This document shows positions 25,137 to 45,940 of a stretch of 64,000 bases of DNA, piece by piece. The notes below the pieces were generated by a model, which was not told the DNA's origin, made no database searches, and was given only the letters and a program-made list of their open reading frames with translations. The stretch lies in NCBI RefSeq assembly GCF_030063365.1, contig NZ_JASISY010000006.1:1-64000 (forward strand), written 5' to 3'. The DNA is from Cryobacterium sp. PH29-G1. Lineage in GTDB: Bacteria; Actinomycetota; Actinomycetes; Actinomycetales; Microbacteriaceae. The stretch's first letter is position 1; each line of letters begins with the position of its first letter. A program made the translations under genes and the position numbers.

Positions 25137-25988
25137 TTAGGCGGGATCGAGTAGGAAGTCGTAGGTGACCTCGCGACCGCTGTCGGTGGGGGTCGGACGA
25201 AGAATCAGCTCAGGTTTTACGGCCGAGGCGATGTCGTTGGACAGATAGGAGTCTCCCTCAAAATAGAGCTGGGCGGTGAGCAGCTGGCGGCCGGGAGCCG
25301 AGACTTTGAGGTGTAGGTGGGCTGGCCGCCAGGCGTGCCAGCCGGCGGCAGTGATCAGATTGCCGCAGGAACCGCCCGTCGGAATCTGGTACGGGGCCGG
25401 CTGGACAGTGTTGATCTCATAGTTGCCTTGTTCATCGGCTACAACGATGCCGCGCAGGTTCCACTGCGGCAGTCCCGGCGCAAATTGCGAATAAAAGCCG
25501 TCATCATCGGCGTGCCAGATTTCCACGTGCGCACCAGCCTGCGCGGTTCCATCAGTGCCGGTAACGGTACCGCGCAGCACGAGTGGGGTTCCTGGCTCGT
25601 CATCGCGCATGGGGAGGGTCGCGGGGGTCGCTTGCTGCGGCGCGTTCGGTACGTAGTACGGTCCCTCGATCGTGCCCTTGGACCCTGTGCGGCCACTGGT
25701 AGCAACCTCCTCGATGACGTGCTCGACCCACACATCAAGAAATAGCGGCCATTCACCGTCTTCGCCGACTTGAATGAGCCACGCTTTGAGCGCGTTGAAC
25801 TCCTCGTACGTCACCTCATGCTTGCGTACTGTTTCATACACGGCCGCAAGAACTTCGTTCGCGAGCAGGGAGACGCGCTCAGTCGATGCGGTCGCTCCGC
25901 CCGTTTTCCCACTCTGGCGAAATAGGTCGGTAGCGGCATTGCCAGAAGCGGCAGCCGAGGGTTCGAGATCGGTAACTTGGTGAGACAT
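25137..25988 (-). CDS. catA: catechol 1,2-dioxygenase (intradiol)
   Basis: Non-heme Fe(III) enzyme that opens catechol to cis,cis-muconate. From the second in-frame ATG (25988, GGAG 6 bases upstream) the product has 283 residues; an ATG at 26000 would add four. An N-terminal helical dimer domain contains EEFNALKAWLIQVGEDGEWP. Iron ligands are visible as Tyr166 (DGFYS), Tyr200 (PAPYQIP), His224 and His226 (WRPAHLHLK). It is last in the minus-strand amine-dioxygenase cluster, where its substrate would be catechol made from an aniline-type amine. No muconate cycloisomerase gene is in the window. A hydroxyquinol dioxygenase is the main alternative. Confidence 0.85.
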   Translation of the reverse strand: MSHQVTDLEPSAAASGNAATDLFRQSGKTGGATASTERVSLLANEVLAAVYETVRKHEVTYEEFNALKAWLIQVGEDGEWPLFLDVWVEHVIEEVATSGRTGSKGTIEGPYYVPNAPQQATPATLPMRDDEPGTPLVLRGTVTGTDGTAQAGAHVEIWHADDDGFYSQFAPGLPQWNLRGIVVADEQGNYEINTVQPAPYQIPTGGSCGNLITAAGWHAWRPAHLHLKVSAPGRQLLTAQLYFEGDSYLSNDIASAVKPELILRPTPTDSGREVTYDFLLDPA

Positions 25989-26153
25989 GTGGTGCTCCAT
26001 TTCTATTTTCTGTCCACATCTGGGCGATGTAGAGGTCGTGTAGGTAGCCAGGGGATGCCTATTTGGTCAGGTGCTAGGTGCCAGCGGAAATTTCACTGGT
26101 CGAGGCAGGGGACCTGATGATGGTGAACGGTATGGATTCAACCCGAGTGAATC

Positions 26154-27449
26154 TCACGGGCGCCTACCCGCCGGAAGGGGGGCGTCAACCGCGCGGATCA
26201 GAGCTTTGAGGGTGAAGTCCGTATTCGTCGCTTCCTCGGACGGAATAGTTGACCCGAGCGATAGCGCACGCTTAACAGCCATGAAATCGTGCGGCCGGTT
26301 GACCGCGTCGGCGGCGATCAGGTGTCCGTCTCGGTAGTACAACACAGAGAAGGATTCGCTGTCTGGTTCTCCGCGCACGACGAAATCGTCGAAGCCAGTC
26401 GACAAACCGGCGATTTGCAGTTTGAGGTCGCCCTGATCAGACCAGAACCAGGGCACGGTTGTCGGCGGGCGGTTCCTGCCAAGAAGCGTCGCAGCGGCCA
26501 CTTTTGCCTGGTCAACGGCATTCTGTACGGATTCTAGGCTAACCAGGGTGTCGGGATGCTGAGGGTGCGGCTGCACGGTGCAGTCACCAGCGGCAACGAC
26601 AGTCGGGTTGCTGGTGCGCGCGGATTCGTCTACAACGATCCCGCGCGAGCAGGTCAGTCCTAGCCGGTGAGCAAGTTCAATGCGCGGTTCGACGCCAATG
26701 CCGACGATGACGACATCGGCCGGCAAGACTGTACCGTCGGAGAGCTCAACACCCGTCACTCGTTCGTCTCCGTGGAGGGCGATGACACCGCTGCCTAAAC
26801 GGAAATGCACGCCGCGGCGGTCGTGGGCACCTCGATAGAACGCCGATACTGGCGGGGCGACCACACGCTGTAGCAACCGTCCGTACGATTCCACAAGCGT
26901 CACGTCGAGGCCGCGCCTGCGTGCTGCGGCGGCGGCTTCGAGGCCAATGAAGCCACCCCCGATGACCACGACGGTGTGTGCCACGCCGAGCAGGGTTCGA
27001 AGGTGTGTGGCATCGGGAATGCTGCGCAGGTAGCAGACGCCGGTCAGATCGGCCCCCGGAATGGTGAGTCGGCGCGGTCGTGATCCGGTCGTGAGCGCAA
27101 GTTTCTCGAAACCGAGGACGCGTCCGTCTCCGGTAAAGGCTTCCCCTCCGCGGCCCGATGCGGCTAGGCGGATGTCCCAGATCCGCGTTCCGATCCGCGC
27201 ATCAATCGCATTTTCGGTGTAGAAGTCCGTTGCTCTTAAAGAAAGGTTATCTTCGTCTACGTCCCCGTTCAGAAAAGACTTGGACAGGGGCGGTCGCTGG
27301 TACGCGCCCCACGGTTCAGCGCCCGCGATGGTGATGGGTGCAGAGTACCCGTTCTCACGCAGGGACACGGCGAGCTGCAGACCTGCCTGCCCGGCGCCCA
27401 CAATGAGTGTGCCAGTGCACGCCGTGACTGAGTTCGTCAAGAGGGTCAT
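26154..27449 (-). CDS. ferredoxin reductase, GR/putidaredoxin-reductase type
   Basis: A 431-residue FAD protein that passes electrons from NAD(P)H to a [2Fe-2S] ferredoxin. An N-terminal FAD loop IVGAGQAGLQLA (~16-27) and a second nucleotide loop VVVIGGGFIGLEAA are visible, with the FAD-ribityl motif VVAAGDC. The C-terminal reductase domain follows. The ATG at 27449 overlaps the ferredoxin stop (ATGA), so the two are translated together. This is the glutathione-reductase-fold class used by class IIA Rieske oxygenases and class I P450 systems, not the fused FNR type of classic aniline dioxygenases. Confidence 0.9.
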   Translation of the reverse strand: MTLLTNSVTACTGTLIVGAGQAGLQLAVSLRENGYSAPITIAGAEPWGAYQRPPLSKSFLNGDVDEDNLSLRATDFYTENAIDARIGTRIWDIRLAASGRGGEAFTGDGRVLGFEKLALTTGSRPRRLTIPGADLTGVCYLRSIPDATHLRTLLGVAHTVVVIGGGFIGLEAAAAARRRGLDVTLVESYGRLLQRVVAPPVSAFYRGAHDRRGVHFRLGSGVIALHGDERVTGVELSDGTVLPADVVIVGIGVEPRIELAHRLGLTCSRGIVVDESARTSNPTVVAAGDCTVQPHPQHPDTLVSLESVQNAVDQAKVAAATLLGRNRPPTTVPWFWSDQGDLKLQIAGLSTGFDDFVVRGEPDSESFSVLYYRDGHLIAADAVNRPHDFMAVKRALSLGSTIPSEEATNTDFTLKALIRAVDAPLPAGRRP

Positions 27450-27766
27450 TGTTCCGGGGCGATTTCGGCTTCGAGACCGTCGAGTGCAGCGGTCATTCGG
27501 ATCTGGCATGACAGGCGGCTATTTGGTTTACGAACTGAGGCGGTGTCGTCGAGCATTTCATCCTCAAAGTCATCGGCTTGACCGGTGAGATCGATGAAGG
27601 AGTCGGCGATGTAGACGTGGCAGGTCGCGCAGGACAATGCGCCGCCACACTCCGCGACGATGCCGGGAACCCCGTGTTTGACAGCGGTCTCCATTACGGA
27701 TGCGCCGATCTGGGCGTCGACGGTGAAGAGTGCCCCGGTGGGGGAGTGAAGGATGATCTTGGGCAT
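27446..27766 (-). CDS. [2Fe-2S] ferredoxin, putidaredoxin/adrenodoxin type
   Basis: A 106-residue electron carrier. Cluster ligands are Cys40, Cys46, Cys49 (CGGALSCATCHVYI) and Cys87 (LSCQI), the Cx5CxxC...C pattern of the adrenodoxin class. The acidic helix DFEDEMLDD would dock the reductase. ATG start; its stop overlaps the reductase start. It probably feeds the Rieske dioxygenase encoded upstream in the same cluster. Confidence 0.92.
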   Translation of the reverse strand: MPKIILHSPTGALFTVDAQIGASVMETAVKHGVPGIVAECGGALSCATCHVYIADSFIDLTGQADDFEDEMLDDTASVRKPNSRLSCQIRMTAALDGLEAEIAPEQ

Positions 27767-27798
27767 GAGAACCTACCTGATCTGTTGACGTGTCGGTT

Positions 27799-27831
27799 GG
27801 TGTGATCCGCCGAGATCGGGCGGATCACACC
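27799..27831 (-). promoter_or_regulatory. 13-bp perfect hairpin between ligase and ferredoxin genes
   Basis: GGTGTGATCCGCC, a 7-base loop and GGCGGATCACACC form a perfect dyad in the 88-base gap. There is no T-tract on either side. It could slow 3' decay of the upstream message or be an operator for a promoter in front of the ferredoxin gene. Confidence 0.6.
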
Positions 27832-27854
27832 GGTGACGAAGGGAATTAGAGTGG

Positions 27855-29363
27855 CTAGTAGAGCTCGAAGTATTCGCGGTGCTCCCAATCGGTCACACCG
27901 TTTACGTAGGTATCCGGGTCGGGGTTCGCGGTAACCCAGGCGTCGTACCGTGCCACTTCACTGCGCTTGATCGTGACCAGGTAATCGATGAAGTGATCGC
28001 CAAAGGCCCCACGGTAGAAGGTGTCAGTTTCCAGTGCGTCGATTGCGTCGGCGAGCGTACTGGGCAGCGCCACAACATCTGCGGCGTACGGGTCTTCGGA
28101 CAATGCGCCCGGACTGGTTTTGTTCAGAATTCCGTCCAGGCCGGCAGCGGCCTGCGCCGCAATATAGAGGTAGGGGTTTGCGGCCGAATCGCCGACCCGG
28201 TTTTCCACGTGGGACGATACATCCCCCGGCGCGCTGATGACACGCATCATGGCGGCCCGGTTGTCCTGTGCCCAGGTCAGCCGGTCGGGGGCGAGCGAAT
28301 ACGGGCGGCGTCGGCGGTATCCATTCACCGTCGGCGTCGTGAATACGGAGGCGGCCACGCCGTGGGCGAGAGTGCCGCCGACATAGTGTTGGCCCAGCTC
28401 AGACAGCGGCTCGTTGAGATCGGTGACCATGAGATTCTCACCGGACTCGATGTCGACGACCGAGGTGTGTAGATGCCACCCGCTCGCGTAGAACCCGGGG
28501 ACGGCAGGGGTGCACATGAAGGATGCGAGGTACCCGTTTCGCTTAGCGATTTGTTTCGTCGCCATGCGAAACATCACCGCAGCATCGGCGGCGGCCAATG
28601 CTTCGAGCACATCGAACGTGGTCTCAACCTGGCTGGGGGCCCACTCGTCGTCGATCGAGCGCAGCGGAAGGCCCATGTCCACGATCGCCTTGCGGATCGG
28701 GCGAAGGATGTCGTCGATTTCATCGAGGTGGTCACCGAGCAGGTAGCTATAGCCACGGGCCACCGGGGCCACCTTGGGCGGATCTGCGGGGGAGCCGGGA
28801 GCACCCAGAGAGCCGGTACCGAGGAGGTCATCAACGACACGGGTCAGGTACCACTCCATTTCGATTCCGGCGATGAGTTTGTAACCGTGTTCGGCCATCC
28901 GCTGCAATGCCTGACGCAGGATGGACCGGGGAGCGAAGGGAAAGAGCTGACCGTTTGACATGTAGAGGTCGCACAGAACGAATGCGGTCTCCGGCACCCA
29001 CGGCAATACGGTGAATGTGGCAGGATCTGGAACCATTTTCACATTGGGGCTGCCTCCTAGGCCCTCGATTCCGAAGCCGCCGTTGGCGGTAAAAGGATTA
29101 AGTACTATCGCATTTGCGGAGTCGAAGAAAAAAGGTGCCATGGTGATGTCCATGCCACTCTCCAAGGCGGACAGATATGCCTCTTTGGTCAGAGACTTTC
29201 CGCGCAGGAGACCGTGCTGATCCGGCCAGGCCAACCGAACGACCTCAATGCCCGCGGCGTCCATGGCGATCCGGGAACGCTCCGCAGCTTCCAACTGCTT
29301 CTCCGAGTAGAGGCCATGCTTCTCAATGAACTTCGCTCGGGGCAATGTGACTTGGTCCAACAT
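27855..29363 (-). CDS. glutamine-synthetase-like gamma-glutamylamide ligase
   Basis: A 502-residue enzyme of the GS fold. Typical segments are IEMEWYLT (Glu metal ligands), GWHLHTSVVD (catalytic-site His), FTTPTVNGYRRRRPYSLAP and SHVENRVGDSAANPYLYIAA. In the C-terminal half these match GS-like ligases (TdnQ/AtdA1, IpuC, PuuA), which attach glutamate to an amine, rather than housekeeping GlnA. Next to a Rieske oxygenase and a glutamine amidotransferase the best reading is ATP-dependent gamma-glutamylation of an aromatic amine such as aniline. ATG with AAGGAG upstream; a stable hairpin sits just before that site. Confidence 0.85.
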   Translation of the reverse strand: MLDQVTLPRAKFIEKHGLYSEKQLEAAERSRIAMDAAGIEVVRLAWPDQHGLLRGKSLTKEAYLSALESGMDITMAPFFFDSANAIVLNPFTANGGFGIEGLGGSPNVKMVPDPATFTVLPWVPETAFVLCDLYMSNGQLFPFAPRSILRQALQRMAEHGYKLIAGIEMEWYLTRVVDDLLGTGSLGAPGSPADPPKVAPVARGYSYLLGDHLDEIDDILRPIRKAIVDMGLPLRSIDDEWAPSQVETTFDVLEALAAADAAVMFRMATKQIAKRNGYLASFMCTPAVPGFYASGWHLHTSVVDIESGENLMVTDLNEPLSELGQHYVGGTLAHGVAASVFTTPTVNGYRRRRPYSLAPDRLTWAQDNRAAMMRVISAPGDVSSHVENRVGDSAANPYLYIAAQAAAGLDGILNKTSPGALSEDPYAADVVALPSTLADAIDALETDTFYRGAFGDHFIDYLVTIKRSEVARYDAWVTANPDPDTYVNGVTDWEHREYFELY

Positions 29364-29382
29364 ATGACTGCTCCTTGATTGG

Positions 29383-29401
29383 GCGGCTCCTGCGGAGCCG
29401 C
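29383..29401 (-). promoter_or_regulatory. 8-bp hairpin in the leader of the ligase gene
   Basis: GCGGCTCC-TGC-GGAGCCGC forms a tight hairpin 20 bases before the ligase ATG, next to its AAGGAG site. It has no T-tract. Control of translation or RNA processing is possible. Confidence 0.55.
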
Positions 29402-29432
29402 GTTCGGGTTGTGCACGTGATGCGGATCGATC

Positions 29433-29480
29433 GGTCAGTGAAATGAGGTCAGTGAAATGAGGTCAGTGAAATCAGGTCAG
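29433..29480. repeat. 14-bp tandem direct repeats upstream of the ligase gene
   Basis: Two identical GGTCAGTGAAATGA units (29433, 29447), one GGTCAGTGAAATCA (29461) and a partial GGTCAG (29475) stand head to tail without spacers in the 196-base gap between the amidotransferase and ligase genes. Such non-coding iterons often bind a regulator. The related core TTTCACTG recurs in the gap before catA near 26090. Confidence 0.85.
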
Positions 29481-29559
29481 CCACTGGGGCTCAGTGACGA
29501 GGCCGCAGTGACGGGGACTCAGCGGAATGCGCTGCCGAAACGAGCTCGGCGCAGCGCGT

Positions 29560-30285
29560 TCAACGGAATGGTTCGGTAGCACTTTCCGAAACCGCCGCAG
29601 CGAGCCAACCACCGACAACGCGCTGAGCGCCTCGCCAAGCACGCCCGCCATCGTCAACTGTTGCCGCGAGGAGTTCGGCCGTGTCTACTCCGCTTGCTCG
29701 TAATTTGGGCCCTTCAATGGCCAAGAGGTGGTGAATACCGACCGGTGAGATCTCGGGGTGGAATTGCACGGCCAGAGCTGAGCCCAATCTCCAGGCCTGC
29801 GGGTAGCGGTCGGAGACCGCTAGAAGCTCCGCGTCAACGGGTGGTCTGAAGGTGTCGCTGTGAAACGAAAAGAACCGACCCTCCAGCCCCGTCAGGTCCG
29901 TGACGTGCTGCCCGGGTGCGGGCAGCACGTCGATGAGTCCGTACTCCAAACCCGAAGGGCCGGGGATGGCCTCTCCTCCGAGAGCCCGAGCCAGAATCTG
30001 GGAACCCAAGCAGATTCCAAGAACCGGCACCTGTGCCTGAACCGCATCGCGCAGAAAGTTTTCTTCTCGGAGGAGGAAGGGATACTTTTCGGTGTCGTAG
30101 GCACTTTGCGGACCCCCCAAACAGATCACGGCGGCAACCGAGGTCACCTCAGGAAGCGCCTCGCCGGCAAAGGGTGAAACGGTTCGTGACGTCAAACCAT
30201 GATCGTCGATTAGTTGGTGGATCCGCTCAAGATCCGTACGCGCAACATGACTGATAATCAGCACGGTGCCGCCCGCCTGGGTCAT
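29560..30285 (-). CDS. class I glutamine amidotransferase-like protein
   Basis: A 241-residue stand-alone GATase. The nucleophile Cys92 is in VLGICLGSQILARALG and the His-Glu part of the triad in VQFHPEIS. The ATG at 30285 overlaps the stop of the preceding small gene (ATGA). In aniline clusters the homologue (TdnT/AtdA2) acts with the GS-like ligase and is thought to hydrolyse gamma-glutamyl intermediates. The same role is inferred here. The sequence resembles GMP-synthase-type GATases, so a general family call is safest. Confidence 0.85.
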   Translation of the reverse strand: MTQAGGTVLIISHVARTDLERIHQLIDDHGLTSRTVSPFAGEALPEVTSVAAVICLGGPQSAYDTEKYPFLLREENFLRDAVQAQVPVLGICLGSQILARALGGEAIPGPSGLEYGLIDVLPAPGQHVTDLTGLEGRFFSFHSDTFRPPVDAELLAVSDRYPQAWRLGSALAVQFHPEISPVGIHHLLAIEGPKLRASGVDTAELLAATVDDGGRAWRGAQRVVGGWLAAAVSESATEPFR

Positions 30286-30572
30286 GGCTGAGGCCGGGGT
30301 TCGATGTTGGAGTGCCAGGGACTCCAATGGTCGGTGCCCGCGAGGGCCTGCATTAGTTCGACCGCGTTCACTCGATCCAAGGCCAGCCAAGAATCATCGA
30401 GACTTACACCGTAGGGAGTGAAATCCCAGATCTTCAGGCGTTTCACCTCAGCGATCACCGGTCGCATCGTCGCGATTTCACGTTCCAATCGGGCGACCTT
30501 CTCGGTGAGGAGTATGTTTTCTCGTCGGATCAGATCGGTCTGCTCCCCAGGCTCCGGGGCATTCGAATTCAT
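30282..30572 (-). CDS. unrecognised 96-residue coiled-coil protein
   Basis: I do not recognise this protein. It sits 9 bases after the dioxygenase beta gene and shares ATGA with the amidotransferase gene, so it is surely part of the operon. Residues ~14-50 form a heptad-like, charged helix (LIRRENILLTEKVARLEREI). A short globular-looking part follows (KIWDFTPYGVSLDDSWLALD), then a Pro-rich tail. No such gene is part of the aniline dioxygenase operons I know. It might be an assembly or docking factor (inference). Confidence 0.75.
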   Translation of the reverse strand: MNSNAPEPGEQTDLIRRENILLTEKVARLEREIATMRPVIAEVKRLKIWDFTPYGVSLDDSWLALDRVNAVELMQALAGTDHWSPWHSNIEPRPQP

Positions 30573-30581
30573 CGTTTCCTC

Positions 30582-31175
30582 TCAAAAGACCAGGGTGAGA
30601 TTCTCGTGGCCGTGCTCAGAATCGAGAAGGTTGACCTGTTTGAGGCGAATCTTCCAGCCGTCGCCATCGGGCGCCAGCACGTGGCCATACCAGCCCGGAT
30701 AGGTTTTGCCGACCCCGGCTCGAAACTCGTGAACAATGAAGTTCGATCGCACCAAGCGGTACCCGGAACCCGGGTCATCAAGCACTTCAACGTTGGTGAT
30801 CAGGCGTCGGGTGCGCGACTGGGGAATCTGGCTGAATGCCAGTCCGGTGCGCAGCCAGAAGACGCGATCGGTGAGGCGGCGTCGGTCGTCGAACGCGTGG
30901 GAAACCTCCAGGCGGGGATTACCGCCTCCCGGGGTAATCGGAACCCAGTAGAGGCAATCGTCGGTGAACAGCTCGATCCAATCGTTGAATCGGGCCTCAT
31001 CGATGAGACGCGCCTCTCTGGACAGAAAACCTTCGGCTGATCTGGCCACATTGACATCAGCGACAGCCCAGTCCGCGGTGAACAGGTCCGCGAAGCGGTC
31101 GAGGTCCGCATAGAAATCAGCGTCCACGTGGTACGACCAACGCGAGGTATCCGAATAGTCGGTCTGCGCGTTCAT
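30582..31175 (-). CDS. aromatic-ring-hydroxylating dioxygenase beta subunit
   Basis: A 197-residue small subunit of the SnoaL-like fold. ATG 31175 overlaps the alpha stop (ATGA). Typical features are EARLIDEARFNDWIELFTDD, CLYWVPITPGG and RTRRLITNVEVL. It has no metal site and builds the alpha3beta3 oligomer. The frame extends upstream but only within the alpha gene. Confidence 0.9.
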   Translation of the reverse strand: MNAQTDYSDTSRWSYHVDADFYADLDRFADLFTADWAVADVNVARSAEGFLSREARLIDEARFNDWIELFTDDCLYWVPITPGGGNPRLEVSHAFDDRRRLTDRVFWLRTGLAFSQIPQSRTRRLITNVEVLDDPGSGYRLVRSNFIVHEFRAGVGKTYPGWYGHVLAPDGDGWKIRLKQVNLLDSEHGHENLTLVF

Positions 31176-32497
31176 GCGCGAGCCCCGTTCATCAGGCGCA
31201 GCCATTCCTGGAAGTAGCTGCGCATATGGATTTCATCGGTCACGGCTGAAACCACAACACCGGTTTCGTCCATGCTCTGCCACCCGTCGACGTTGAGGCC
31301 GCGATTCATGAGGATCCACTCGACTTCAGTGACAGCCAGACCGCGCTGGACCTCTTCGAAATTCGCTTGGTCGTCGGGTTCACCGAATGCGGGAAAGTCT
31401 TCCTGGGTACGCATTCGCATAGTGTTGACTTCTTCGGGCACACCGCCAATGCTCGTCGCATTCCACACCAACTGGGTCTTGTCGACGCTCAGGGGCTCGA
31501 TCACCTGAATCTGATTACCAATGATCAGAAGATTAGGAAAGATGCTCAGGTTGATTTGGGCCCCCGCGCTGATGTCCAAGAGTCGATCGGCATCCTCGGG
31601 GTACTTCGTACGAATCAGTTCTTCGAAGCGTTCCCGGCCAGGCTGCGGTCGCTGATTTGCCCAGATGCTACCGGGGCCGTCAAAATTGGGGCGTTGGTCG
31701 ATGACGCTGTGTCCGTTGCCGAGGGAGTAGATCTTCATCGCTCCGTCATCGGGGGTCTTGCCGAAGTAGGACATGTCCTTACTGTCGCCCAATCGCGACG
31801 CCATCTCGAGCAGAGAACGGTGCGAGAACGAGGGGTGGTATCCGTCGCCCCCGTTGTCGTAGGCAAGCTTCCAGTTGCCGCGGTAGACCATGCGGTGGGC
31901 TGCGGCGCGCACGATGACCTCACCGTCGGGCGCCCGGTCAATCCAGTAGTCCAGCCACGGTTTGGCTTCACCGAGAAAATCTTCCAGCGATGGCGCGGAT
32001 TCGTTCAGAGTGCCGAAGATAAATCCGCGGTAACTCTCGACGCGGGAGACCTTGCCGAGACCGAGTTCGGACTTGTTGAAATCCGCGCCGTATCCGCTGG
32101 GCCACGGAGCGCCGACGAGCTCGCCGGTGTTCCGAAACGTCCACCCGTGGTACGGGCACTGAAAGCTCTTTGCTACCCCGGCCTCCTCGCGGCAGATGGT
32201 TGCGGCGCGGTGAGCGCACCGATTGAAGACGGCGTGCAGTCCACCCTTACGGTCTCTCGTGATCACGATAGGACGTAGCCCCAACGTGCCGGTCACGAAG
32301 GAATTCTTCTCCGGGAGCTGGGACTCATGGGCCAGATATGCCCAGGTCTGCCCGAAAACTTTGACCATTTCCTCGGTGAATACCCGCTCCTCGGTGTAGA
32401 GCGACCTGTGCACCCGGTCTTCACGCACTAGGTCATCCCAGCACGGTGTCTTCGGATCCTTCACGGAATCCGTCACTACGGAAAGTACGTCCACCAT
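31172..32497 (-). CDS. Rieske dioxygenase alpha subunit, aniline-dioxygenase-like
   Basis: A 441-residue catalytic subunit. Rieske ligands are Cys94-x-His96 and Cys114-x2-His117 (CAHRAA and QCPYHGWTF). The mononuclear iron site has Asp218 (bridging), His221 and His226 in GGDGYHPSFSH; the third ligand lies nearer the C-terminus. It would add both atoms of O2 to an aromatic ring. The GS-like, GATase, ferredoxin and catechol dioxygenase genes downstream point to an aromatic amine. ATG with AGGAG 9 bases before it. A TATAGA on the minus strand at 32579-32584 could be the -10 of its promoter. Confidence 0.92.
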   Translation of the reverse strand: MVDVLSVVTDSVKDPKTPCWDDLVREDRVHRSLYTEERVFTEEMVKVFGQTWAYLAHESQLPEKNSFVTGTLGLRPIVITRDRKGGLHAVFNRCAHRAATICREEAGVAKSFQCPYHGWTFRNTGELVGAPWPSGYGADFNKSELGLGKVSRVESYRGFIFGTLNESAPSLEDFLGEAKPWLDYWIDRAPDGEVIVRAAAHRMVYRGNWKLAYDNGGDGYHPSFSHRSLLEMASRLGDSKDMSYFGKTPDDGAMKIYSLGNGHSVIDQRPNFDGPGSIWANQRPQPGRERFEELIRTKYPEDADRLLDISAGAQINLSIFPNLLIIGNQIQVIEPLSVDKTQLVWNATSIGGVPEEVNTMRMRTQEDFPAFGEPDDQANFEEVQRGLAVTEVEWILMNRGLNVDGWQSMDETGVVVSAVTDEIHMRSYFQEWLRLMNGARA

Positions 32498-32646
32498 CTG
32501 CTCGGCTCCTCAGAAGATCATGGCCTCGATGTTGGGGCCACTGAATTGAGCCGAGCCTATGGATCGCTTTTCGGAGCGTCTATAGAAGCGTGAGGAATTT
32601 CGTTAGGAAGAATTCGACGACCTAGATTTCTCTACAAGGAATGTGG

Positions 32647-33435
32647 CTAGCGATCCTGCAGGTCTGCCAGAGCCACCGAAGTCATGCGCTTCTCGACGGC
32701 TGCAGCCGCGGCCAACAGCGCCTGCGCGCACTCCTCGACCTTTTCTTTGCTAAAGCGGATGCTGGGAATGGCGGCGCTGATGGCGACTACCGGCCGCCCC
32801 TGCTGGTCGAGAACCGCGACGCCAATGCCGTTGACTCCCTGAGCCGCCTCCTCGATGTTGGTGGCATATCCCTGCTGGCGTACCGTCGCCAAGTGACGTT
32901 TCAAGGCCAAAACGCTCGAGATTCGGGTGGAGCGCCACGGCGGAAGACCTCCGCCGTGCAGGTGGTCAATCTGCGCGTTACTCAGCGACGCGAGCATCGC
33001 TTTCCCCCCGGCGGAGCAATATGCCGGAACCTGGTCCCACACGCCGACCCTAATTCTCAAGGTCTGGTCGCTCTCCACCCCGTCAACGTATCGAACTTGG
33101 GGTCCCTCGAGTACCCAGACCTGCACGGTCTCATCCAGTTGCTTGACCAATGATTCGAGAGTGGGACGCACGATCTGGCGCACGGTACTGATCGATCGCG
33201 TGCTGTCACTCCAGGAGGCCAGTTCCGGGCCGGCTCGATAGAGGCGCTCTCGATTCTGCATGGCAAAGCCGCCATGACACAGAGCTGCCAGAAGGCGATG
33301 GGCTGTCGAGGGGACCACGTTGAGTCGTTCGGCCGCCGCTTTGACGCTCATAACCTCGCCGTCCCGCAGCGCGACGATCAATTTGAGTGCCCGATCAACT
33401 GAATCGAGGGGAGGTTGTGGCTCAAGATTTCGCAT
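32647..33435 (-). CDS. IclR family transcriptional regulator
   Basis: A 262-residue protein. The N-terminal winged HTH (SVDRALKLIVALRDGE to NVVPSTAHRLLAAL) is followed by the IclR effector domain (PAYCSAGGKAMLASL, EEAAQGVNGIGVAVLD). IclR proteins often control aromatic catabolism with a pathway intermediate as effector. It lies between the dioxygenase operon and the divergent M24-hyuBA-ABC operon, so it may control either or both. The dyad in the divergent promoter (33463-33477) is a candidate site. Confidence 0.92.
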   Translation of the reverse strand: MRNLEPQPPLDSVDRALKLIVALRDGEVMSVKAAAERLNVVPSTAHRLLAALCHGGFAMQNRERLYRAGPELASWSDSTRSISTVRQIVRPTLESLVKQLDETVQVWVLEGPQVRYVDGVESDQTLRIRVGVWDQVPAYCSAGGKAMLASLSNAQIDHLHGGGLPPWRSTRISSVLALKRHLATVRQQGYATNIEEAAQGVNGIGVAVLDQQGRPVVAISAAIPSIRFSKEKVEECAQALLAAAAAVEKRMTSVALADLQDR

Positions 33436-33457
33436 AAGAGAATCTTTACACGATGCA

Positions 33458-33487
33458 TTGCGCTAGGGGAAACCTAGTTTATATAGT
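33458..33487 (+). promoter_or_regulatory. promoter with dyad in spacer, before the M24-hyuBA operon
   Basis: TTGCGC (33458-33463), 18 bases, TATAGT (33482-33487) is a good sigma-70-type pair. The spacer contains the perfect dyad CTAGG-GGAAA-CCTAG (33463-33477), where a bound protein would block or remodel RNA polymerase. It lies 80 bases before the M24 gene and just upstream of iclR, so the IclR protein is the likely binder. Confidence 0.55.
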
Positions 33488-33566
33488 CCGGGTATCGACT
33501 GGCGGTACGGGCCAGCAGAAACTCAGAGATCTTTAACAAATCAATCTGAAGAACGGGACGGTACTG

Positions 33567-34751
33567 GTGAGTACGAACTTAGATGAGCGGGATCGCCGCT
33601 GGGGTTTGCTCAATGATTCCATGCGCGAACACAGCATGGATTGCCTGATCTTTGCGGCCAACGACTACCGCGGTCACAAGGGCGCTTTGCGCTACGTGAC
33701 CGACTACAACTTATTTCATCGGTCCGGCAATGCGGTCATGTTTAAAAATGAGGAACCGATTGTCGTGTTGTCGGGGAGTTTGGCCGGCTCTCGCCGCCCG
33801 ACCACGGACTGGGTTGCCGACTACCGTTTTCCCGGCACCATCGCCCAAGGGCTGGTCGACGCCTTCTCAGGGCGCAAGAATGTCAAGCGAGTGGGCATTG
33901 TCGGATTCGGCCAGATCATGAAGGTCGACGAATACCTCGCGCTGACCGAGGGGCTGCCCGGGATTGAATTCTTTGACTACACGGCAAACTTCGAGAAGAT
34001 CCGCGTGGTGAAGAGCCCAGAGGAGATTATTGGAGTTGAAGAATCCGCGTACGTCTTAGACCAATGCTTCACCCGCCTGCTCGAAATTGCCCGGCCCGGC
34101 GTGACCGAGCGCGAGATTGGCGCCGAAATGTACAGAGTGGGATACAAGCTGGGCGGGGAAGACCCGCTCTTCCTCACCATGTACACCGAGAACCTCCATG
34201 ACGGAGTGTCGGCAAGTTTCGCGCCGCCGCGGGGACGAGAACTGAACGCACACGACCTGCACACCTTTTCTTTTGAAATCGTCGGTCCGCGCGGGTACTG
34301 GACCGAGCTCTCTCGTATGGTCACCTTTGCGACCCCGCACGACGACGATGTGCGAATGGCGAGGGCCGTCTCCAAGGGGATCACGGCCGCAGCCGCCGCG
34401 ATGAAGCCTGGAACATCACCCAATGCCGTACAGCAGTCCGTGCTCGCAGCAATCGAATCGGAGGGCGCGGTCTCCTCTTATTGGTCGGGGCACTCCCTCG
34501 GCCTGGACGTGCTGGAGCAACCGTGGATCGGACTCGACGTCGTCGAGGACGATGGCGGCCAGGCCAGCGACATCATCGAAGTTGGCAACGTCTTCACTAT
34601 TCACCCCATGGTCGTCGACCAGGTCAAGAAACGGAGCGGATATATGTCCGACACGTTCGTCATTGAGTCTGACGGCGCGCGCAAACTCTCCGAATTCAGC
34701 ACGGCTCTGCACTGCCTGACGAAAGGAAACGTCAATGTCATCGACTACTAG
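33567..34751 (+). CDS. M24 family creatinase-like hydrolase
   Basis: A 394-residue pita-bread-fold protein. The N-terminal creatinase domain is followed by the M24 catalytic domain. Comparison with Xaa-Pro aminopeptidase motifs shows that the metal ligands are mostly lost: the two Asp positions read Glu (SFEIVG, TELSR), the TIEPG Glu is His (TIHPM) and the RxEDT Glu is Ser (MSDTFVIE), while GHSLG keeps His. Loss of metal ligands is known for creatinase, which cleaves C-N bonds without metal. Adjacent hyuB and hyuA genes suggest action on an amide or guanidine-like substrate. GTG start with a weak ribosome site. Confidence 0.8.
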   Translation: MSTNLDERDRRWGLLNDSMREHSMDCLIFAANDYRGHKGALRYVTDYNLFHRSGNAVMFKNEEPIVVLSGSLAGSRRPTTDWVADYRFPGTIAQGLVDAFSGRKNVKRVGIVGFGQIMKVDEYLALTEGLPGIEFFDYTANFEKIRVVKSPEEIIGVEESAYVLDQCFTRLLEIARPGVTEREIGAEMYRVGYKLGGEDPLFLTMYTENLHDGVSASFAPPRGRELNAHDLHTFSFEIVGPRGYWTELSRMVTFATPHDDDVRMARAVSKGITAAAAAMKPGTSPNAVQQSVLAAIESEGAVSSYWSGHSLGLDVLEQPWIGLDVVEDDGGQASDIIEVGNVFTIHPMVVDQVKKRSGYMSDTFVIESDGARKLSEFSTALHCLTKGNVNVIDY

Positions 34752-36492
34752 TACCCGGATCGATCCAATCACCGCGTCCGTGCTCCAACGCCGCGTCGAC
34801 GCGATCGCCAAGGAAATGGCTGGAATGCTCATGCGGTCGTCGCGTTCACCAATTTTCAACGAGATTGGTGATCTAGTGACGGTCGTGTTCGATAAGCACG
34901 GAAACACGCTTGCTCAAGCCGAATTTGCGGCCATCATCGCGTTCGGTGCGCATCCCTCGCTTGAATTCATCATCAACTATTACGGTGACGACGTTCACGA
35001 GGGTGACGTCATTATTCATAACGACGTGTATTCCGGGGGAAATCAGAACGCCGACACCGGCATCTACGTGCCGGTCTTCGTCGACGCCGCCCTCGTGGGT
35101 TGGATGGCAGCCAAGGGGCACATGGCGGACATCGGTGGTATGACGGCAGGCGGCTATGACCCCAATGCGAAGGACATTTGGCAGGAAGCACTGCGTATCC
35201 CTCCCGTCAAAATCGTGCACCGTGGGGTTCTGCAGCGTGATGTTTGGGACTTCATCTCTGCGAATATCCGCATGGATTTTGTCATGGAAGACATCAAGTC
35301 CATGATCGGATGCTGCACGGTAGGGGGGCGACGCCTCATTGAGGTTATCCGGAGGTACACCCTGGAAACCTACGAAGACCACATGAACTACATTTTGGAA
35401 AGCTCCGCGCGTCAAGTTCGTGCTGAAGTCGGTCGGTGGGCCGATGGGCATTACTACGGCGAGAGCTGGATGGTTTCCGACGGGTTCGACACCACCAAAA
35501 GATACAAGATTGCCTGCGAGATTGAGGTCAAGGGCGAAGAGATCACCTTCGACTTCTCGTCGAGCGATGATCAGGCACCGGGAATCACGAATATGCCTCC
35601 CGCCTCGGCCAAGGGAGCCGTACGAATTGCGTTCCTCATGATCATGGCGGCGGGCGGCATCAACATTCCGACCAACCAGGGCCTGTTCGAACCTATCAAG
35701 ACGGTCTTCCGAGAAGGTTCCCTGCTCAATCCGCGGTTTCCCGCCGCAACCGTCTTCGGCAACCAGATGTGCGATGAAGTTGTTGAATGCATAATGACGG
35801 CCCTCTCCGGAATCCTGCCAGATCGGGTGACGGCCGGATGGAACAAATACCTCTGCACATCAACGCACGGAGTTGACCCGCGCACCAACGAGGCCTTTGG
35901 TACCCTCACGGTGTTCCAACGCACCGGCCCCGGCGGAATGCTCGGTACCGACGGCTGGGATGCGCTTGGTTTCACCGGAACGGCAGGCCAGATGCGCGCT
36001 CCAGACCCCGAGATGTTTGAACTAACTTCTCCTCACTTCCTCGAGTATCTGGAATACCTTCCCGACTCCGCTGGAGCTGGCGAATTTCGCGGCGGAATGG
36101 GTACCCGAACGGCGTGGAGCAACTATGGTCTGCACCAGCACGGCGTCACCCTCGGCGATAATGTTCGTCACGAAGGAGCCGTTCCCGCTCAGGGGCTGTT
36201 CGGCGGGTCGGATTCTGGCCTCAATGAGATCACGGTCACCTATCCGGATGGCCGGGAACATTTGTGGGGCTCGAAGGAGATCATCGAGCTCCCGGCCGGT
36301 ACCCGGATGGAATCCATCAGCGGGGGCGGCGCCGGCTATGGCGACCCGAGAAAGCGCCCCATCAAAAAGGTGCTCGCCGAGGTTCGTGACGGTGTCCTCA
36401 CCCGGGAGAAGGCACGCGAGGACTACGGCGTAGTTATCTTCGCAGACGGAGTGTCCGTCGACCAGGAACAAACCGCGGCTCTTCGAGCCTAG
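34735..36492 (+). CDS. hyuB: hydantoinase/oxoprolinase family protein, HyuB
   Basis: A 585-residue protein of the hydantoinase B family (subunit of ATP-dependent N-methylhydantoinase, 5-oxoprolinase or acetophenone carboxylase systems). Conserved segments are SRSPIFNEIGDLVTVVFD, GDVIIHNDVYSGGNQNAD, KGHMADIGGMTAGG and the C-terminal GGGAGYGDP. The ATG overlaps the M24 stop region by 17 bases. It would work with HyuA on ring opening of a cyclic amide; carboxylation is the main alternative. Confidence 0.88.
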   Translation: MSSTTSTRIDPITASVLQRRVDAIAKEMAGMLMRSSRSPIFNEIGDLVTVVFDKHGNTLAQAEFAAIIAFGAHPSLEFIINYYGDDVHEGDVIIHNDVYSGGNQNADTGIYVPVFVDAALVGWMAAKGHMADIGGMTAGGYDPNAKDIWQEALRIPPVKIVHRGVLQRDVWDFISANIRMDFVMEDIKSMIGCCTVGGRRLIEVIRRYTLETYEDHMNYILESSARQVRAEVGRWADGHYYGESWMVSDGFDTTKRYKIACEIEVKGEEITFDFSSSDDQAPGITNMPPASAKGAVRIAFLMIMAAGGINIPTNQGLFEPIKTVFREGSLLNPRFPAATVFGNQMCDEVVECIMTALSGILPDRVTAGWNKYLCTSTHGVDPRTNEAFGTLTVFQRTGPGGMLGTDGWDALGFTGTAGQMRAPDPEMFELTSPHFLEYLEYLPDSAGAGEFRGGMGTRTAWSNYGLHQHGVTLGDNVRHEGAVPAQGLFGGSDSGLNEITVTYPDGREHLWGSKEIIELPAGTRMESISGGGAGYGDPRKRPIKKVLAEVRDGVLTREKAREDYGVVIFADGVSVDQEQTAALRA

Positions 36493-36514
36493 AGAAGAAT
36501 TGGAAGACGACCTC

Positions 36515-38611
36515 ATGAGCATCAGAATCGGAATCGACGTCGGCGGTACCTTCACGGACTTCCTGGTGATCTACCCGGACGGCAAACGACGCATCCACAA
36601 GACCAGCTCCGTACCCTCCAACCCACCGATGGCCGTTCAGATCGGCTTGGCCGAAATCGCCACCGCCGAAAACAAAACCATCGAAGACTTCATGGCCGAG
36701 GTCGGGCTCATCGTGCACGGAACCACAGTGACCACAAACGCCCTGCTAACCCGTAATGGACCCACCACGGGTCTGCTGACCACCGAAGGATTCCGCGACG
36801 TGTTGCCCATGCGCGACGGCACTCGTGAGGAGGCCTACGACAACCGGCTTGAGCAGCCGGTGCCGCTGGTTCCTCGCTACTTGCGCCAGCCGGTCGCCGG
36901 TCGGGTCGACTACAAGGGCGACGTGCTCACGGCGCTCAAAGAGGAAGATGTTTACGCCGCCGCGGAGATTTTCAAGGCGAATGACGTGGAATCTGTGGCC
37001 ATCTCTTTCATGCATTCTCACGCGGAGACCAGCCACGAAGATCGTGCCGCGGAGATCATCGCCGAGGTCCTGCCGGGGGCTTACATCACGAAGTCCTCAG
37101 AACTGCTCGCCCAGGCTCGGTACTACCCTCGAATGAGCACCGCCGTGCTCAACTCCTATGCCGGGCCGATCATCAGCTCGTATCTGTCTACGCTCACCGA
37201 ACTCCTCGAGGAGGTGCACTTTTCGGGCATCCTGCTTCTTATGCAGTCCAACGGGGGTGTCGCCACCCCCGGTGAGCTCGCGAAGCGTGCCGCCCTGTCC
37301 TTGCTCTCCGGGCCTGCTTCAGGCCCAACTGCTGGCCTGCTGGTGACCGCGGCCCACGGCTGGGATTCCTGCCTGACCGTAGATATGGGCGGCACTAGCT
37401 TTGATGCCGCCGTGGTCAAAGACAACAAACCGCTCATCATGACCGATGGCATTATCGACCGTTGGAGGATCGCCCTGCCGATGGTTGACATCAACACCAT
37501 CGGCGCCGGCGGCGGCAGCATCGCCTCGGTCGACGAAGGTGGCCTGCTCCGAGTTGGCCCGCAGAGCGCTGGTGCCACGCCCGGACCTGCGTGTTATCGA
37601 CGTGGCGGGGTCAACGCCACCGTCACGGATGCCGACGTAGTGCTCGGCTACATCGATCCAGACACGTTTCTGCACGGCCAGATCGGGCTGGATCGCGAAG
37701 CGTCGATTCAGGCGATCAAGAACGATGTCGCCGACCCATTGGGCATCACTGTGGAGGAGGCCGCCTTTGGTATTTACCAGATGGTCAACGTAAACATGGC
37801 GACGGGCGTGCGGGACATCACCGTGCGCCGAGGCCTGGACCCGCGAGACTTTCCTATCGTGGTCGCTGGTGGAGCCGGCCCGGTGCACGCCGGTGCAATT
37901 GCCCGGGAGCTGGAAATTCCGATCCTGCTCACCCCCCGTGATTCCTCAATCTTCTGCGCGGCCGGCATGCTCGTCTGTGACTTCAAGCACGACTACGTTC
38001 AAAGTTCCAACCAGCGCTTGGAAAGCCTGTCCGACGAGTACCTGGTCGACACCTGGAAGGGCATGATGGCCGAGGGCCGCAAGACCCTGCACGCGGAGGG
38101 TGTGGCCGACGCAGCGATCTCATACGTGCCTTCCGTTGACCTGCGCTACAAGGGTCAGTGGTATGAGATCAACGTGGAAGTTGATCCCGCCAACCTCGTG
38201 TCGCCCAACATCGCCGAGTTCTATGCCTCGTTCCACAAACTCCACGACACGCTCTTCGGCTACAGCACCCTCGACATGCCCATCGACCTGCTTAACATTC
38301 GGCTGACGGTAGTCGGCACGACACCCAACGATCGGGTTGACCTGGCCGCCACTGCCGCGGGAGCCATTCCCGAGCACCGAAGACGCGACATCTACTCTCC
38401 ACTCCAGCGGCAAATGGTTGAGGTGGAGGTCTATCAGGGTGCAGCGATGGTTCCTCTCGACGAGATCGAAGGCCCCGCCATCATCGAACTCGGCACCACC
38501 ACCATTGTGGTGCTCGATGAATACAACACCGTCGTTGACAAGAACGGTTCCTTCGTGATGTATCTGCGCGACCAGAAGGACACGTTGAAGGCCAGGCTCG
38601 ACCTCTCGTAG
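36515..38611 (+). CDS. hyuA: hydantoinase/oxoprolinase family protein, HyuA
   Basis: A 698-residue ATP-dependent subunit. ATG 36515 follows GGAAG; a TTG five codons earlier is unlikely. The N-terminal RIGIDVGGTFTDFLVI and GTTVTTNALL form the ASKHA-type nucleotide site, with a second phosphate loop VDMGGTSFDAAV. The C-terminal half includes RRGLDPRDFPIVVAGGAGP. It pairs with HyuB just upstream (22-base gap). Substrate could be hydantoin-, N-methylhydantoin- or 5-oxoproline-like. Confidence 0.9.
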   Translation: MSIRIGIDVGGTFTDFLVIYPDGKRRIHKTSSVPSNPPMAVQIGLAEIATAENKTIEDFMAEVGLIVHGTTVTTNALLTRNGPTTGLLTTEGFRDVLPMRDGTREEAYDNRLEQPVPLVPRYLRQPVAGRVDYKGDVLTALKEEDVYAAAEIFKANDVESVAISFMHSHAETSHEDRAAEIIAEVLPGAYITKSSELLAQARYYPRMSTAVLNSYAGPIISSYLSTLTELLEEVHFSGILLLMQSNGGVATPGELAKRAALSLLSGPASGPTAGLLVTAAHGWDSCLTVDMGGTSFDAAVVKDNKPLIMTDGIIDRWRIALPMVDINTIGAGGGSIASVDEGGLLRVGPQSAGATPGPACYRRGGVNATVTDADVVLGYIDPDTFLHGQIGLDREASIQAIKNDVADPLGITVEEAAFGIYQMVNVNMATGVRDITVRRGLDPRDFPIVVAGGAGPVHAGAIARELEIPILLTPRDSSIFCAAGMLVCDFKHDYVQSSNQRLESLSDEYLVDTWKGMMAEGRKTLHAEGVADAAISYVPSVDLRYKGQWYEINVEVDPANLVSPNIAEFYASFHKLHDTLFGYSTLDMPIDLLNIRLTVVGTTPNDRVDLAATAAGAIPEHRRRDIYSPLQRQMVEVEVYQGAAMVPLDEIEGPAIIELGTTTIVVLDEYNTVVDKNGSFVMYLRDQKDTLKARLDLS

Positions 38612-38722
38612 CCCGCCAGACCACTCCTGACTCACCCGGTAGCCGCCACCGGTGGCTGCGCCCTACAACCATGCCCGAAAATCCATTTCTATCGCTTTTC
38701 CCGAGAGTAAGGACCGATTCAC

Positions 38723-39748
38723 ATGCTGAAAAAAACGCTCCTCCTGGCGGCATCCGCAGTATTACTGGTGTCCGTAAGTTCCTGCGCCGCATCCACGGAA
38801 AGCGCGGTCACCACCAGCGCCGGCGACAAAAAGATCACCGTCGGCTATTCCGGTGCCATCCAATCCAACCCGAACAACAAAGCAATCGAAGACGGCATCA
38901 GGGCCAAGGCCGACTCACTGGGGATGGATCTCATCGTCACCGACGCCCAGTACAACACCAGCAAACAACTCGCTGATATTCAATCGCTCCTCAACCGCAA
39001 CGTCGACGTTCTCATCGTGTGGCCGATCGACCCGCTTGGCATCCAGCCGGCCATCGAACAGGCCGATAGCCAGGGAGTTCCCGTTATTGTGCAGGACACG
39101 ACCGACGGGGGGCCGTACACGTCCAATTTCCAGGTCACCAATTACGCCTCGGCTCAACAGGCGGCAACGTTCATCGGTGAGAATGTCGAGGCCACCGCGA
39201 AGGTCGTGCAGATTGAGGGCGTGCCCACCGTTGGTGTTCTCGACGCGCGTAACAAGGGTTTCCAAGACGGTGCGAAGGAAACCGGCCTGAACATCCTCGC
39301 CAGCGAGGTCAATGGGCTGGACACTGCAGACGGCGCTCGCCCAATCGTCGACGCCTGGAAGTCGCGTTTCGGCACCGATATTCAAGCGATCTTTGCCTAC
39401 AACGACGACAGCGCCCTCGGGGCAGCCTCAGCCAAGGCAGGGGACTTCAACCCCATGGTCATCGGCATGAATGGTTCGCAGGAAGGTATCGACGGGGTTA
39501 AGGACGGTCGCTTGGCGGCCACCTTCGATTTTCACCCCGTGCAGCTGGGCATGGGTTTAGGCTGGGCAGCTCATGAGCTTGCCGAGGGGCGCAGTATCCC
39601 GAAGACCGTGGTGATGGAATCGACCCTAATCACCGCCGCGAACGCTTCGAGCTGGATTCCGATCAAAGCCTTGCTCGGCTCGCAGACCAGCGTCGATATC
39701 ACCACGAAGGACGGGGTCTCCACCCTTAATGTAACCGCGAGCAAGTAA
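38723..39748 (+). CDS. CUT2-type ABC transporter substrate-binding lipoprotein
   Basis: A 341-residue exported lipoprotein. The signal peptide KKTLLLAASAVLLVSVSSC ends in a lipobox with Cys21. The mature protein is a type I periplasmic-binding fold of the ribose/LacI-like class (VGYSGAIQSNPNNKAIEDG, DVLIVWPIDPLGIQPAI, QAIFAYNDDSALGAASA). Relatives bind sugars, AI-2 or nucleosides, so the catabolic context rather than the family tells the ligand. The stop overlaps the ATPase start (TAATG). The 111-base gap before it holds a small GCCACCGGTGGC palindrome (38645-38656). Confidence 0.9.
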   Translation: MLKKTLLLAASAVLLVSVSSCAASTESAVTTSAGDKKITVGYSGAIQSNPNNKAIEDGIRAKADSLGMDLIVTDAQYNTSKQLADIQSLLNRNVDVLIVWPIDPLGIQPAIEQADSQGVPVIVQDTTDGGPYTSNFQVTNYASAQQAATFIGENVEATAKVVQIEGVPTVGVLDARNKGFQDGAKETGLNILASEVNGLDTADGARPIVDAWKSRFGTDIQAIFAYNDDSALGAASAKAGDFNPMVIGMNGSQEGIDGVKDGRLAATFDFHPVQLGMGLGWAAHELAEGRSIPKTVVMESTLITAANASSWIPIKALLGSQTSVDITTKDGVSTLNVTASK

Positions 39749-42259: not shown

Positions 42260-42318
42260 GCAGCGAAACCTCCTGTGAATGCCGCTTGCTATACGCCACG
42301 GGCGGTGAACTCCCCTCC

Positions 42319-42348
42319 CGGGGCGGCGTTGCTGCGTGTCGGGGCGGC
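42319..42348 (+). promoter_or_regulatory. two 9-bp direct repeats before the monooxygenase gene
   Basis: CGGGGCGGC occurs at 42319-42327 and 42340-42348, exactly 21 bases (two helix turns) apart, in the 228-base gap before the flavoprotein gene. A 6-bp dyad TCGAAG/CTTCGA follows at 42357-42381. These are candidate activator sites, perhaps for the LuxR regulator encoded downstream. Confidence 0.4.
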
Positions 42349-42487
42349 AGCATCCCTCGAAGGGGGGAAGCGAATCTTCGACCCGATCGAGTGATGTTGG
42401 TGAAGAATCGCACGAACCTACACTTGCAAAAATCCTGACGGCATCCCGCACAGGAGACAAGCAGTCCCCGTAGCAGGAGGAAAAGCC

Positions 42488-43891: not shown

Positions 43892-43915
43892 GCGCCAGGT
43901 ACCAGGACCGCCCGT

Positions 43916-43929
43916 AACTGCGTGCAGTT
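43916..43929 (+). promoter_or_regulatory. palindrome AACTGC-GT-GCAGTT before the LuxR gene
   Basis: A perfect 6-bp dyad with a 2-base centre lies 25 bases before the LuxR ATG. It may be an autoregulatory operator. It also overlaps the only short gap in the monooxygenase operon. Confidence 0.4.
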
Positions 43930-43953
43930 CTAGACTTCTAAAGGAGATACCGC

Positions 43954-45908: not shown

Positions 45909-45940
45909 CACTTAACCAATTCAAAGCGGAGGAAGACACA

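Follow-up and report, generated by a model that had tools for sequence, protein, structure and literature searches.

Genes of the two divergent operons

The stretch of DNA analysed here (the window) comprises 64,000 nucleotides of Cryobacterium sp. PH29-G1, namely positions 1 to 64,000 of contig NZ_JASISY010000006.1 in RefSeq assembly GCF_030063365.1. It contains two divergent operons: one on the minus strand that encodes a Rieske dioxygenase, two electron carriers, a glutamine synthetase (GS)-like ligase and catechol 1,2-dioxygenase (CatA), and one on the plus strand that encodes hydantoinase-type proteins and a flavin monooxygenase (FPMO). Judging from the sequence comparisons described below, the minus-strand operon is likely to be one half of a 21-kb catabolic island of the skatole (ska) type. 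Its substrate would be a compound of the indole type, skatole and indole being the most likely candidates; an arylamine would be made from it, glutamylated and dioxygenated. The genes and the extent of the island are as follows.

25137..26000, minus strand: CatA, actinobacterial type (TIGR02438, 459.7 bits, cut-off 404.4)
26154..27449, minus strand: ferredoxin reductase (FdR), putidaredoxin-reductase type (Pyr_redox_2 and Reductase_C; start set by the overlap with the ferredoxin gene)
27446..27766, minus strand: [2Fe-2S] ferredoxin (Fd), putidaredoxin type (Fer2)
27855..29363, minus strand: putative GS-like gamma-glutamyl arylamine ligase (Q), TdnQ/AtdA1/NpaA1 type (by similarity to NpaA1); skaH by position
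29560..30285, minus strand: class I amidotransferase-like protein (T), TdnT/AtdA2 type (PF00117); skaE by position
30282..30572, minus strand: small conserved orphan protein x, 96 amino acids, recurring across loci; skaZ by position
30582..31175, minus strand: Rieske dioxygenase beta subunit (A2; PF00866); skaD
31172..32497, minus strand: Rieske dioxygenase alpha subunit (A1; PF00355, PF00848 and tree); skaC
32647..33435, minus strand: IclR-family regulator (PF01614 and PF09339)
33567..34751, plus strand: M24 (creatinase/prolidase-fold) protein; skaI by position
34735..36492, plus strand: hydantoinase B-type subunit HyuB, caprolactamase-beta-like, below the family cut-off; skaJ by position
36500..38611, plus strand: hydantoinase A-type subunit HyuA, caprolactamase-alpha-like, below the family cut-off; skaK by position
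38723..39748, plus strand: substrate-binding protein of an ABC importer (PF13407)
39748..41241, plus strand: ABC transporter ATPase (PF00005, two stretches)
41114..42259, plus strand: ABC transporter permease, start uncertain (PF02653)
42488..43891, plus strand: styrene/indole-type FPMO (PF17885), counterpart of SkaA
43954..45108, plus strand: LuxR-family regulator (PF00196), counterpart of SkaR
45105..45908, plus strand: short-chain dehydrogenase (SDR); skaL by position
45905..46492, plus strand: flavin reductase (PF01613), counterpart of SkaB
25139..46447, no strand: shared block; blastn similarity to stretches of Cryobacterium glaciale and genome G093 ends here on both sides

All genes that the first-pass annotation of this DNA had named on the minus strand are present close to where it had placed them and match their families, and the frame it had called x is a real gene. 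For the beta subunit, the amidotransferase and the reductase, the longest open reading frames start too far upstream; each of these genes has an ATG that overlaps the stop codon of the preceding gene. With the starts corrected in this way, alpha and beta, x and the amidotransferase, and the ferredoxin and the reductase overlap by a few bases, so that each of these pairs is tightly coupled. The residues that we take to be catalytic are intact, namely the Rieske residues C94/H96/C114/H117 and the iron site D218/H221/H226/D376 of the alpha subunit, and the triad C92/H176/E178 of the amidotransferase-like protein, as in a gamma-glutamylating dioxygenase system. The host genome (3.80 Mb) contains a second CatA copy (contig C3, 94333-95481, in L148), which is 80% identical to that of the block and adjoins the muconolactone isomerase gene CatC.

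The first-pass annotation recognised a real operon but ended it at 32497; the unit reaches about 46447. The divergent operon spans 33567-46492, and both halves occur in the same arrangement in C. glaciale and in G093. When the window is compared with the stretches fetched from these two genomes by blastn (E up to 1e-20), no similarity is found outside 25139-46447. The gap between the reductase and CatA genes is about 150 bp in the window (26000-26154), as against about 1.2 kb in C. glaciale (L017, 16227-17429). The G+C content is 59.9% in 25137-46492, compared with 65.4% in the left flank and 63.0% in the right flank.

The alpha gene is rare among related genomes. At E up to 1e-90, and with the window's own genome counted, it is found in 3 of 57 genomes of the genus and 2 of 299 genomes of the family; at the same threshold, 11 of 401 genomes of the Gordonia alkanivorans (G004) family contain it, five of them at an identity of at least 70%. 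In a sample of 396 genomes from the phylum, the alpha gene (E up to 1e-150) was found in a single genome, that of the window, and so was the FPMO gene (E up to 1e-100). This distribution, the common edges and the G+C content fit the lateral transfer of one unit, no search having been aimed at an integrase or an insertion site. A viral scan gave two weak, short matches only.

Affiliation of the oxygenase, the ligase and the electron carriers

The alpha tree consists of 106 rows: 105 tblastn matches with a coverage of at least 70%, including the window, and HcaE of E. coli as the outgroup. Duplicate loci, fragment loci and two viral matches were removed beforehand. Note that the tree was built by a quick method with SH-aLRT as its sole measure of support, that it carries a long-branch warning, and that HcaE is its sole characterised member of the benzoate, anthranilate or phenylpropionate type. 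The alpha subunit of the window falls inside an 85-row ligase-linked clade (support 100), a 20-row actinobacterial clade (97) and a 16-row clade (100). It lies outside a 14-row proteobacterial clade (98) that holds the 1-naphthylamine system of JS3066 and in which 12 of the 14 loci match a TdnB-type reductase. The genome scan for alpha kept the best 80 loci, so that counts from it describe a sample; among these loci the nearest alpha is that of C. glaciale (91%). Benzoate, anthranilate and phenylpropionate dioxygenases were rejected as identities of the alpha subunit, which scores far below their cut-offs.

Comparison of the ligase with solved structures gives 586 bits for NpaA1 (8wwu) and 165 bits for the next structure, and on this comparison the identity of a housekeeping or polyamine GS is rejected. 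The NpaA1 tunnel residues F75, F86 and W235, together with E234, correspond to F80, F91, W241 and E240 in the window, while V201, M81 and E232 are replaced by Y, I and D, respectively. NpaA1 is reported to glutamylate arylamines (PMC11335346), and the window protein is predicted to be the arylamine ligase of an aniline-type system. The homology to gamma-glutamylating, aniline-type dioxygenases that had been claimed at first is borne out by the position of alpha in the ligase-linked clade and by the best match of the ligase. Neither of the contrary outcomes named with that claim is observed: alpha does not group with carboxylate- or hydrocarbon-type dioxygenases, nor does the ligase, by its sequence, group with housekeeping or polyamine GS.

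Class IIA dioxygenases combine a reductase of the glutathione reductase fold that lacks an Fe-S centre with a [2Fe-2S] ferredoxin of the plant or putidaredoxin type. Both components are found in the window, in agreement with the class IIA-like chain proposed in the first-pass annotation: the closest solved relatives of the ferredoxin are the ferredoxins 4ltu and 3hui and putidaredoxin, and those of the reductase are 3fg2, 3lxd and putidaredoxin reductase. Of the 16 loci in the clade closest to the window's alpha, 15 (the window among them) have the pair next to the oxygenase; in the stretch fetched from Pseudonocardia halophobica (L019) it was not found. The order A1-A2-x-T-Q-Fd-FdR is kept in 14 of the 15 pair-bearing loci, again including the window, so that the layout reflects more than chance. 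The exception is Amycolatopsis nivea (L022), where Q lies upstream and T was not found. Genera with the same order include Corynebacterium, Dietzia, Rhodococcus, Gordonia, Pseudonocardia, Prauserella, Knoellia and Geodermatophilus, and C. glaciale shares it as well. Because this order recurs and a cluster with separate carriers has been published for Rhodococcus DH-2, the architecture is already known in kind and the initial claim of its novelty has to be withdrawn. The reductase itself is not specific to these operons, since plasmid reductases of Rhodococcus opacus (58%) are as close to it as that of Corynebacterium (56%).

Other arrangements are seen outside this clade. The proteobacterial reductases compared, those of L007, L012 and L009, each consist of one protein that includes a Fer2 domain, and in many other proteobacterial loci no reductase was recognised by the queries used. 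Alphaproteobacterial loci (e.g., L034, L038, L043 and L050), several of which come from metagenome bins, have the order Q-A1-A2, with no adjacent amidotransferase or reductase recognised by the queries. In the Nostoc loci L008 and L029, one of which is on a plasmid, the order is A2-A1-Q and alpha is 56-57% identical. The ligase gene of G705 (L127, 12242-13727) reads in two frames, which may reflect a frameshift or a sequencing error.

Protein x matches no NCBIfam family and, at an E value of up to 1, no Pfam family; some of its relatives give weak coiled-coil-type matches below the cut-off. Its sequence has a heptad-like start followed by the pattern WDF.PY...W.A.DR...DHW.PW. A relative is present in 22 of the 25 loci examined, the window included, i.e. 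in all 20 loci of the actinobacterial clade and in both Bacillus loci; among the loci examined it was not found in Nostoc L029, L055 and L120. In all plasmid records x matches just three, every one in such an operon. We rejected a function of x in support of the ferredoxin because x also stands beside the other electron pair in L138, and because it occurs in L019, L025, L026 and L027, where no pair was found. In Rhodococcus gordoniae pDND3A (L006, 12461-13605), x is separated by an IS3 transposase from an amidotransferase gene that is shortened.

Correspondence to the skatole cluster and the proposed route

The skatole cluster of Rhodococcus aetherivorans DMU1 is reported to consist of 14 genes, skaCDZEFGHAIJKRLB, with skaA of 1,368 bp and skaB of 531 bp at a spacing of 7,058 bp (PMC13101512). 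The window is compared with this cluster through genome G499, which is equated with the published cluster on the basis of the lengths, spacing and order of its genes. G499 contains 14 genes in one run (A1, A2, x, T, FNR, Fd, Q, FPMO, M24, HyuB, HyuA, LuxR, SDR and flavin reductase), in which FPMO (1368 bp) and the flavin reductase (531 bp) are 7057 bp apart, so that these values equal the published ones to one base. The order also agrees with the published letters C and D (oxygenase subunits), F and G (the remaining two parts of the three-component system), A (monooxygenase), R (LuxR) and B (flavin reductase); the remaining letters, given by position in the list above, are assigned by gene order in this analysis.

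Counterparts of 12 of the 14 genes are found in the window, with identities to G499 of 42-72%: A1 70%, A2 63%, x 47%, T 47%, Q 69%, FPMO 62%, M24 54%, HyuB 72%, HyuA 68%, LuxR 42%, SDR 65% and flavin reductase 57%. The two unmatched genes of G499 encode a thioredoxin-reductase-like flavoprotein and a Fer4 ferredoxin and lie between T and Q. A SkaA/SkaB-type monooxygenase and flavin reductase thus occur together with the Rieske set in the window, and the full run of 14 genes does not. In the published work, Cryobacterium is among the genera with SkaA homologues of at least 40%, SkaA oxidises skatole, and ring cleavage is ascribed tentatively to the oxygenase set, with further work said to be needed on how 3-hydroxy-3-methyloxindole is formed and on the steps that follow (2026 paper, PMC13101512). 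The terms 'glutamine synthetase' and 'hydantoinase' do not appear in the main text of that paper, and a literature search joining hydantoinase, oxindole and aminophenyl found no paper.

From the gene content we propose the following route. FPMO, the flavin reductase and SDR would oxidise the pyrrole ring, giving an oxindole (3-hydroxy-3-methyloxindole, for example), and HyuB and HyuA, perhaps with M24, would open the lactam using ATP to give a 2-aminophenyl acid, i.e. a substituted aniline. The GS-like ligase would then couple L-glutamate to the aromatic amine. Electrons would pass from NADH through the putidaredoxin-reductase-type flavoprotein and the [2Fe-2S] ferredoxin to the Rieske alpha/beta pair, which would dihydroxylate the nitrogen-bearing carbon and its neighbour so that glutamine leaves. 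Retro-aldol loss of the side chain (as pyruvate in the case of skatole) would yield catechol. Finally, CatA would open the catechol, and the amidotransferase-like protein would remove surplus gamma-glutamyl amide.

The assignment of HyuAB as a candidate oxindole-opening enzyme draws on its lactamase-type relatives, its linkage and a precedent from the anaerobic breakdown of indoleacetate, in which IaaCE is hydantoinase-like. The closest curated families are caprolactamase subunits, with scores below the cut-off, and a solved 5-oxoprolinase is also related. A role of HyuAB as a 5-oxoprolinase in glutamate recycling is a possible alternative, but lactam opening agrees better with the linkage to M24 and FPMO. 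HyuA, HyuB and M24 stand beside A1 in 7 of the 20 actinobacterial-clade loci and in both Bacillus loci, and all HyuA matches of at least 44% among the 16 genomes searched fall in the seven genomes that show this linkage. In the Bacillus loci L028 and L030, M24-HyuA-HyuB lie upstream of A1-A2-Q-x-T, and in L028 there are, in addition, an NCS1-type permease, an intradiol dioxygenase and a protein of the Fe-ADH family. Catechol is probably the product, in view of CatA in the block and of CatA and CatC elsewhere in the genome; of the 16 members of the clade, seven (counting the window) carry CatA in the stretch fetched.

Several points weigh against this reading of the island. The HyuAB/M24-linked loci L018, L022, L024, L028 and L030 lie in genomes without a close FPMO (the search of these five genomes gave one match of 29%, in G002, and none in the other four at E up to 1e-20), so that the pairing of lactamase and dioxygenase does not need a skatole step. 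In the 15.6-kb stretch fetched from Corynebacterium occultum, whose alpha (80%) is the closest outside the genus, neither HyuAB nor FPMO was found; several stretches end a few kb from A1 (e.g., L020 and L023), where absent neighbours are weak evidence. Placed on the alpha tree, the HyuAB linkage takes seven changes across 24 rows, and alpha is therefore not grouped by its gene context. The 14 genes of G499 include neither CatA nor IclR nor the importer, the LuxR regulators are only 42% alike, and the retro-aldol step is our own proposal.

The loci without a close FPMO, the NCS1-type permease in L022 and L028, and the importer in the window would also suit a block that degrades another lactam or N-heteroaromatic compound opening to an arylamine (e.g., indole-3-acetate or a dihydroquinolone), with FPMO not mainly a skatole enzyme. 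We regard this as doubtful, since the FPMO of the window is 62% identical to the ska-type FPMO of G499 and at most 35% identical to plasmid sequences among the 15 matches listed of 50 records. It is distinctly unlikely that the minus-strand operon is a plain aniline cluster as in DH-2, converting aniline through gamma-glutamylanilide and catechol to muconate, with the divergent operon an unrelated co-travelling neighbour. The gene set is the same as that of DH-2, the ligase tunnel residues suit aromatic amines, and L004, L005, L006 and L023 have Fd, FdR and CatA with no HyuAB or FPMO in the stretches fetched. However, both halves have common edges in three genomes, the published ska cluster has the same genes in one run, and A1 is accompanied by HyuAB and M24 in two different phyla. 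Because the best match of the unit is the skatole cluster, degradation probably starts from a compound other than free aniline. Within the proposed indole route, the last step may also differ: on chemical reasoning, an ortho-substituted aniline would most simply be attacked at C1/C6 rather than C1/C2, and this regiochemistry would give a 3-substituted catechol instead of catechol and a keto acid. This variant is possible, though we do not favour it, given that the catechol 1,2-dioxygenase of the block, an intradiol enzyme, scores above its family cut-off and that none of the genes in the block was recognised as encoding an extradiol enzyme.

The separate-carrier layout being already known, it is the combination of genes that suggests how indole rings may be dismantled. 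As a speculative generalisation, held with low confidence, indole-type rings might be mineralised by way of a hidden aniline: monooxygenation, ATP-dependent lactam opening, ATP-dependent glutamylation, ipso-dioxygenation with glutamine leaving, and retro-aldol loss of a keto acid to give catechol. The oxygenase would tolerate unrelated carriers, of the putidaredoxin type here and thioredoxin-reductase-like plus Fer4 in G499. The findings suggest that 'aniline' dioxygenases may serve natural indole breakdown beyond man-made amines, and annotation as 'aniline degradation' can miss the true substrate. The first-pass annotation was right about the gene families, claimed too much for the architecture and read too little of the extent.

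Comparison with known systems

The aniline cluster of Rhodococcus sp. DH-2 is described as containing cadB1 ([2Fe-2S] ferredoxin), cadB2 (reductase), cadQ, cadT, two oxygenase subunits and catA, and as resembling that of Rhodococcus AN-22 (PMC11596033). By this published gene list, i.e. at the level of the gene set and not of sequence, the window is alike in having two oxygenase subunits, a separate [2Fe-2S] ferredoxin and reductase, GS-like and glutamine amidotransferase-like proteins, and catA together. The HyuAB/FPMO half, which is present in the window, goes unmentioned for DH-2 in the passages of that report on its cluster.

The proteobacterial loci L007 (Delftia pLME1) and L010 (npa of Pseudomonas JS3066, from PMC11335346) have the ligase, the amidotransferase and the Rieske pair in common with the window, whose alpha is 49% and 45% identical to theirs, respectively. 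These systems differ from the window in their order, Q-T-A1-A2-reductase, and in their separate alpha clade, and x was not found in L007 and L010. The reductase of L007 and L012 is one FAD/NAD/Fer2 protein, whereas the window has two separate carriers. A fused plant-type ferredoxin reductase (TdnB/AtdA5) is absent from the window, the ferredoxin and the reductase being separate, so that the cluster is not of the Tdn/Atd type in the strict sense; the comparison with the Tdn/Atd systems themselves is one of general organisation. Both carriers of the window are alike in sequence to putidaredoxin and putidaredoxin reductase, whose partner is a P450; that of the window pair would be the Rieske dioxygenase.

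Compared with the ska cluster as represented by G499, the window is alike in the oxygenase pair, the ligase, the amidotransferase, x, FPMO, M24, HyuAB, LuxR, SDR and the flavin reductase. It differs in having two divergent operons instead of one run, in the putidaredoxin-type pair placed after Q instead of the flavoprotein and Fer4 ferredoxin, and in the additional CatA, IclR and ABC importer. The island would be of the ska type, differing from the published set by other electron carriers and by an additional catechol dioxygenase. As a second, distant version of the skatole gene set in which most enzymes recur, it narrows the downstream route to testable steps.

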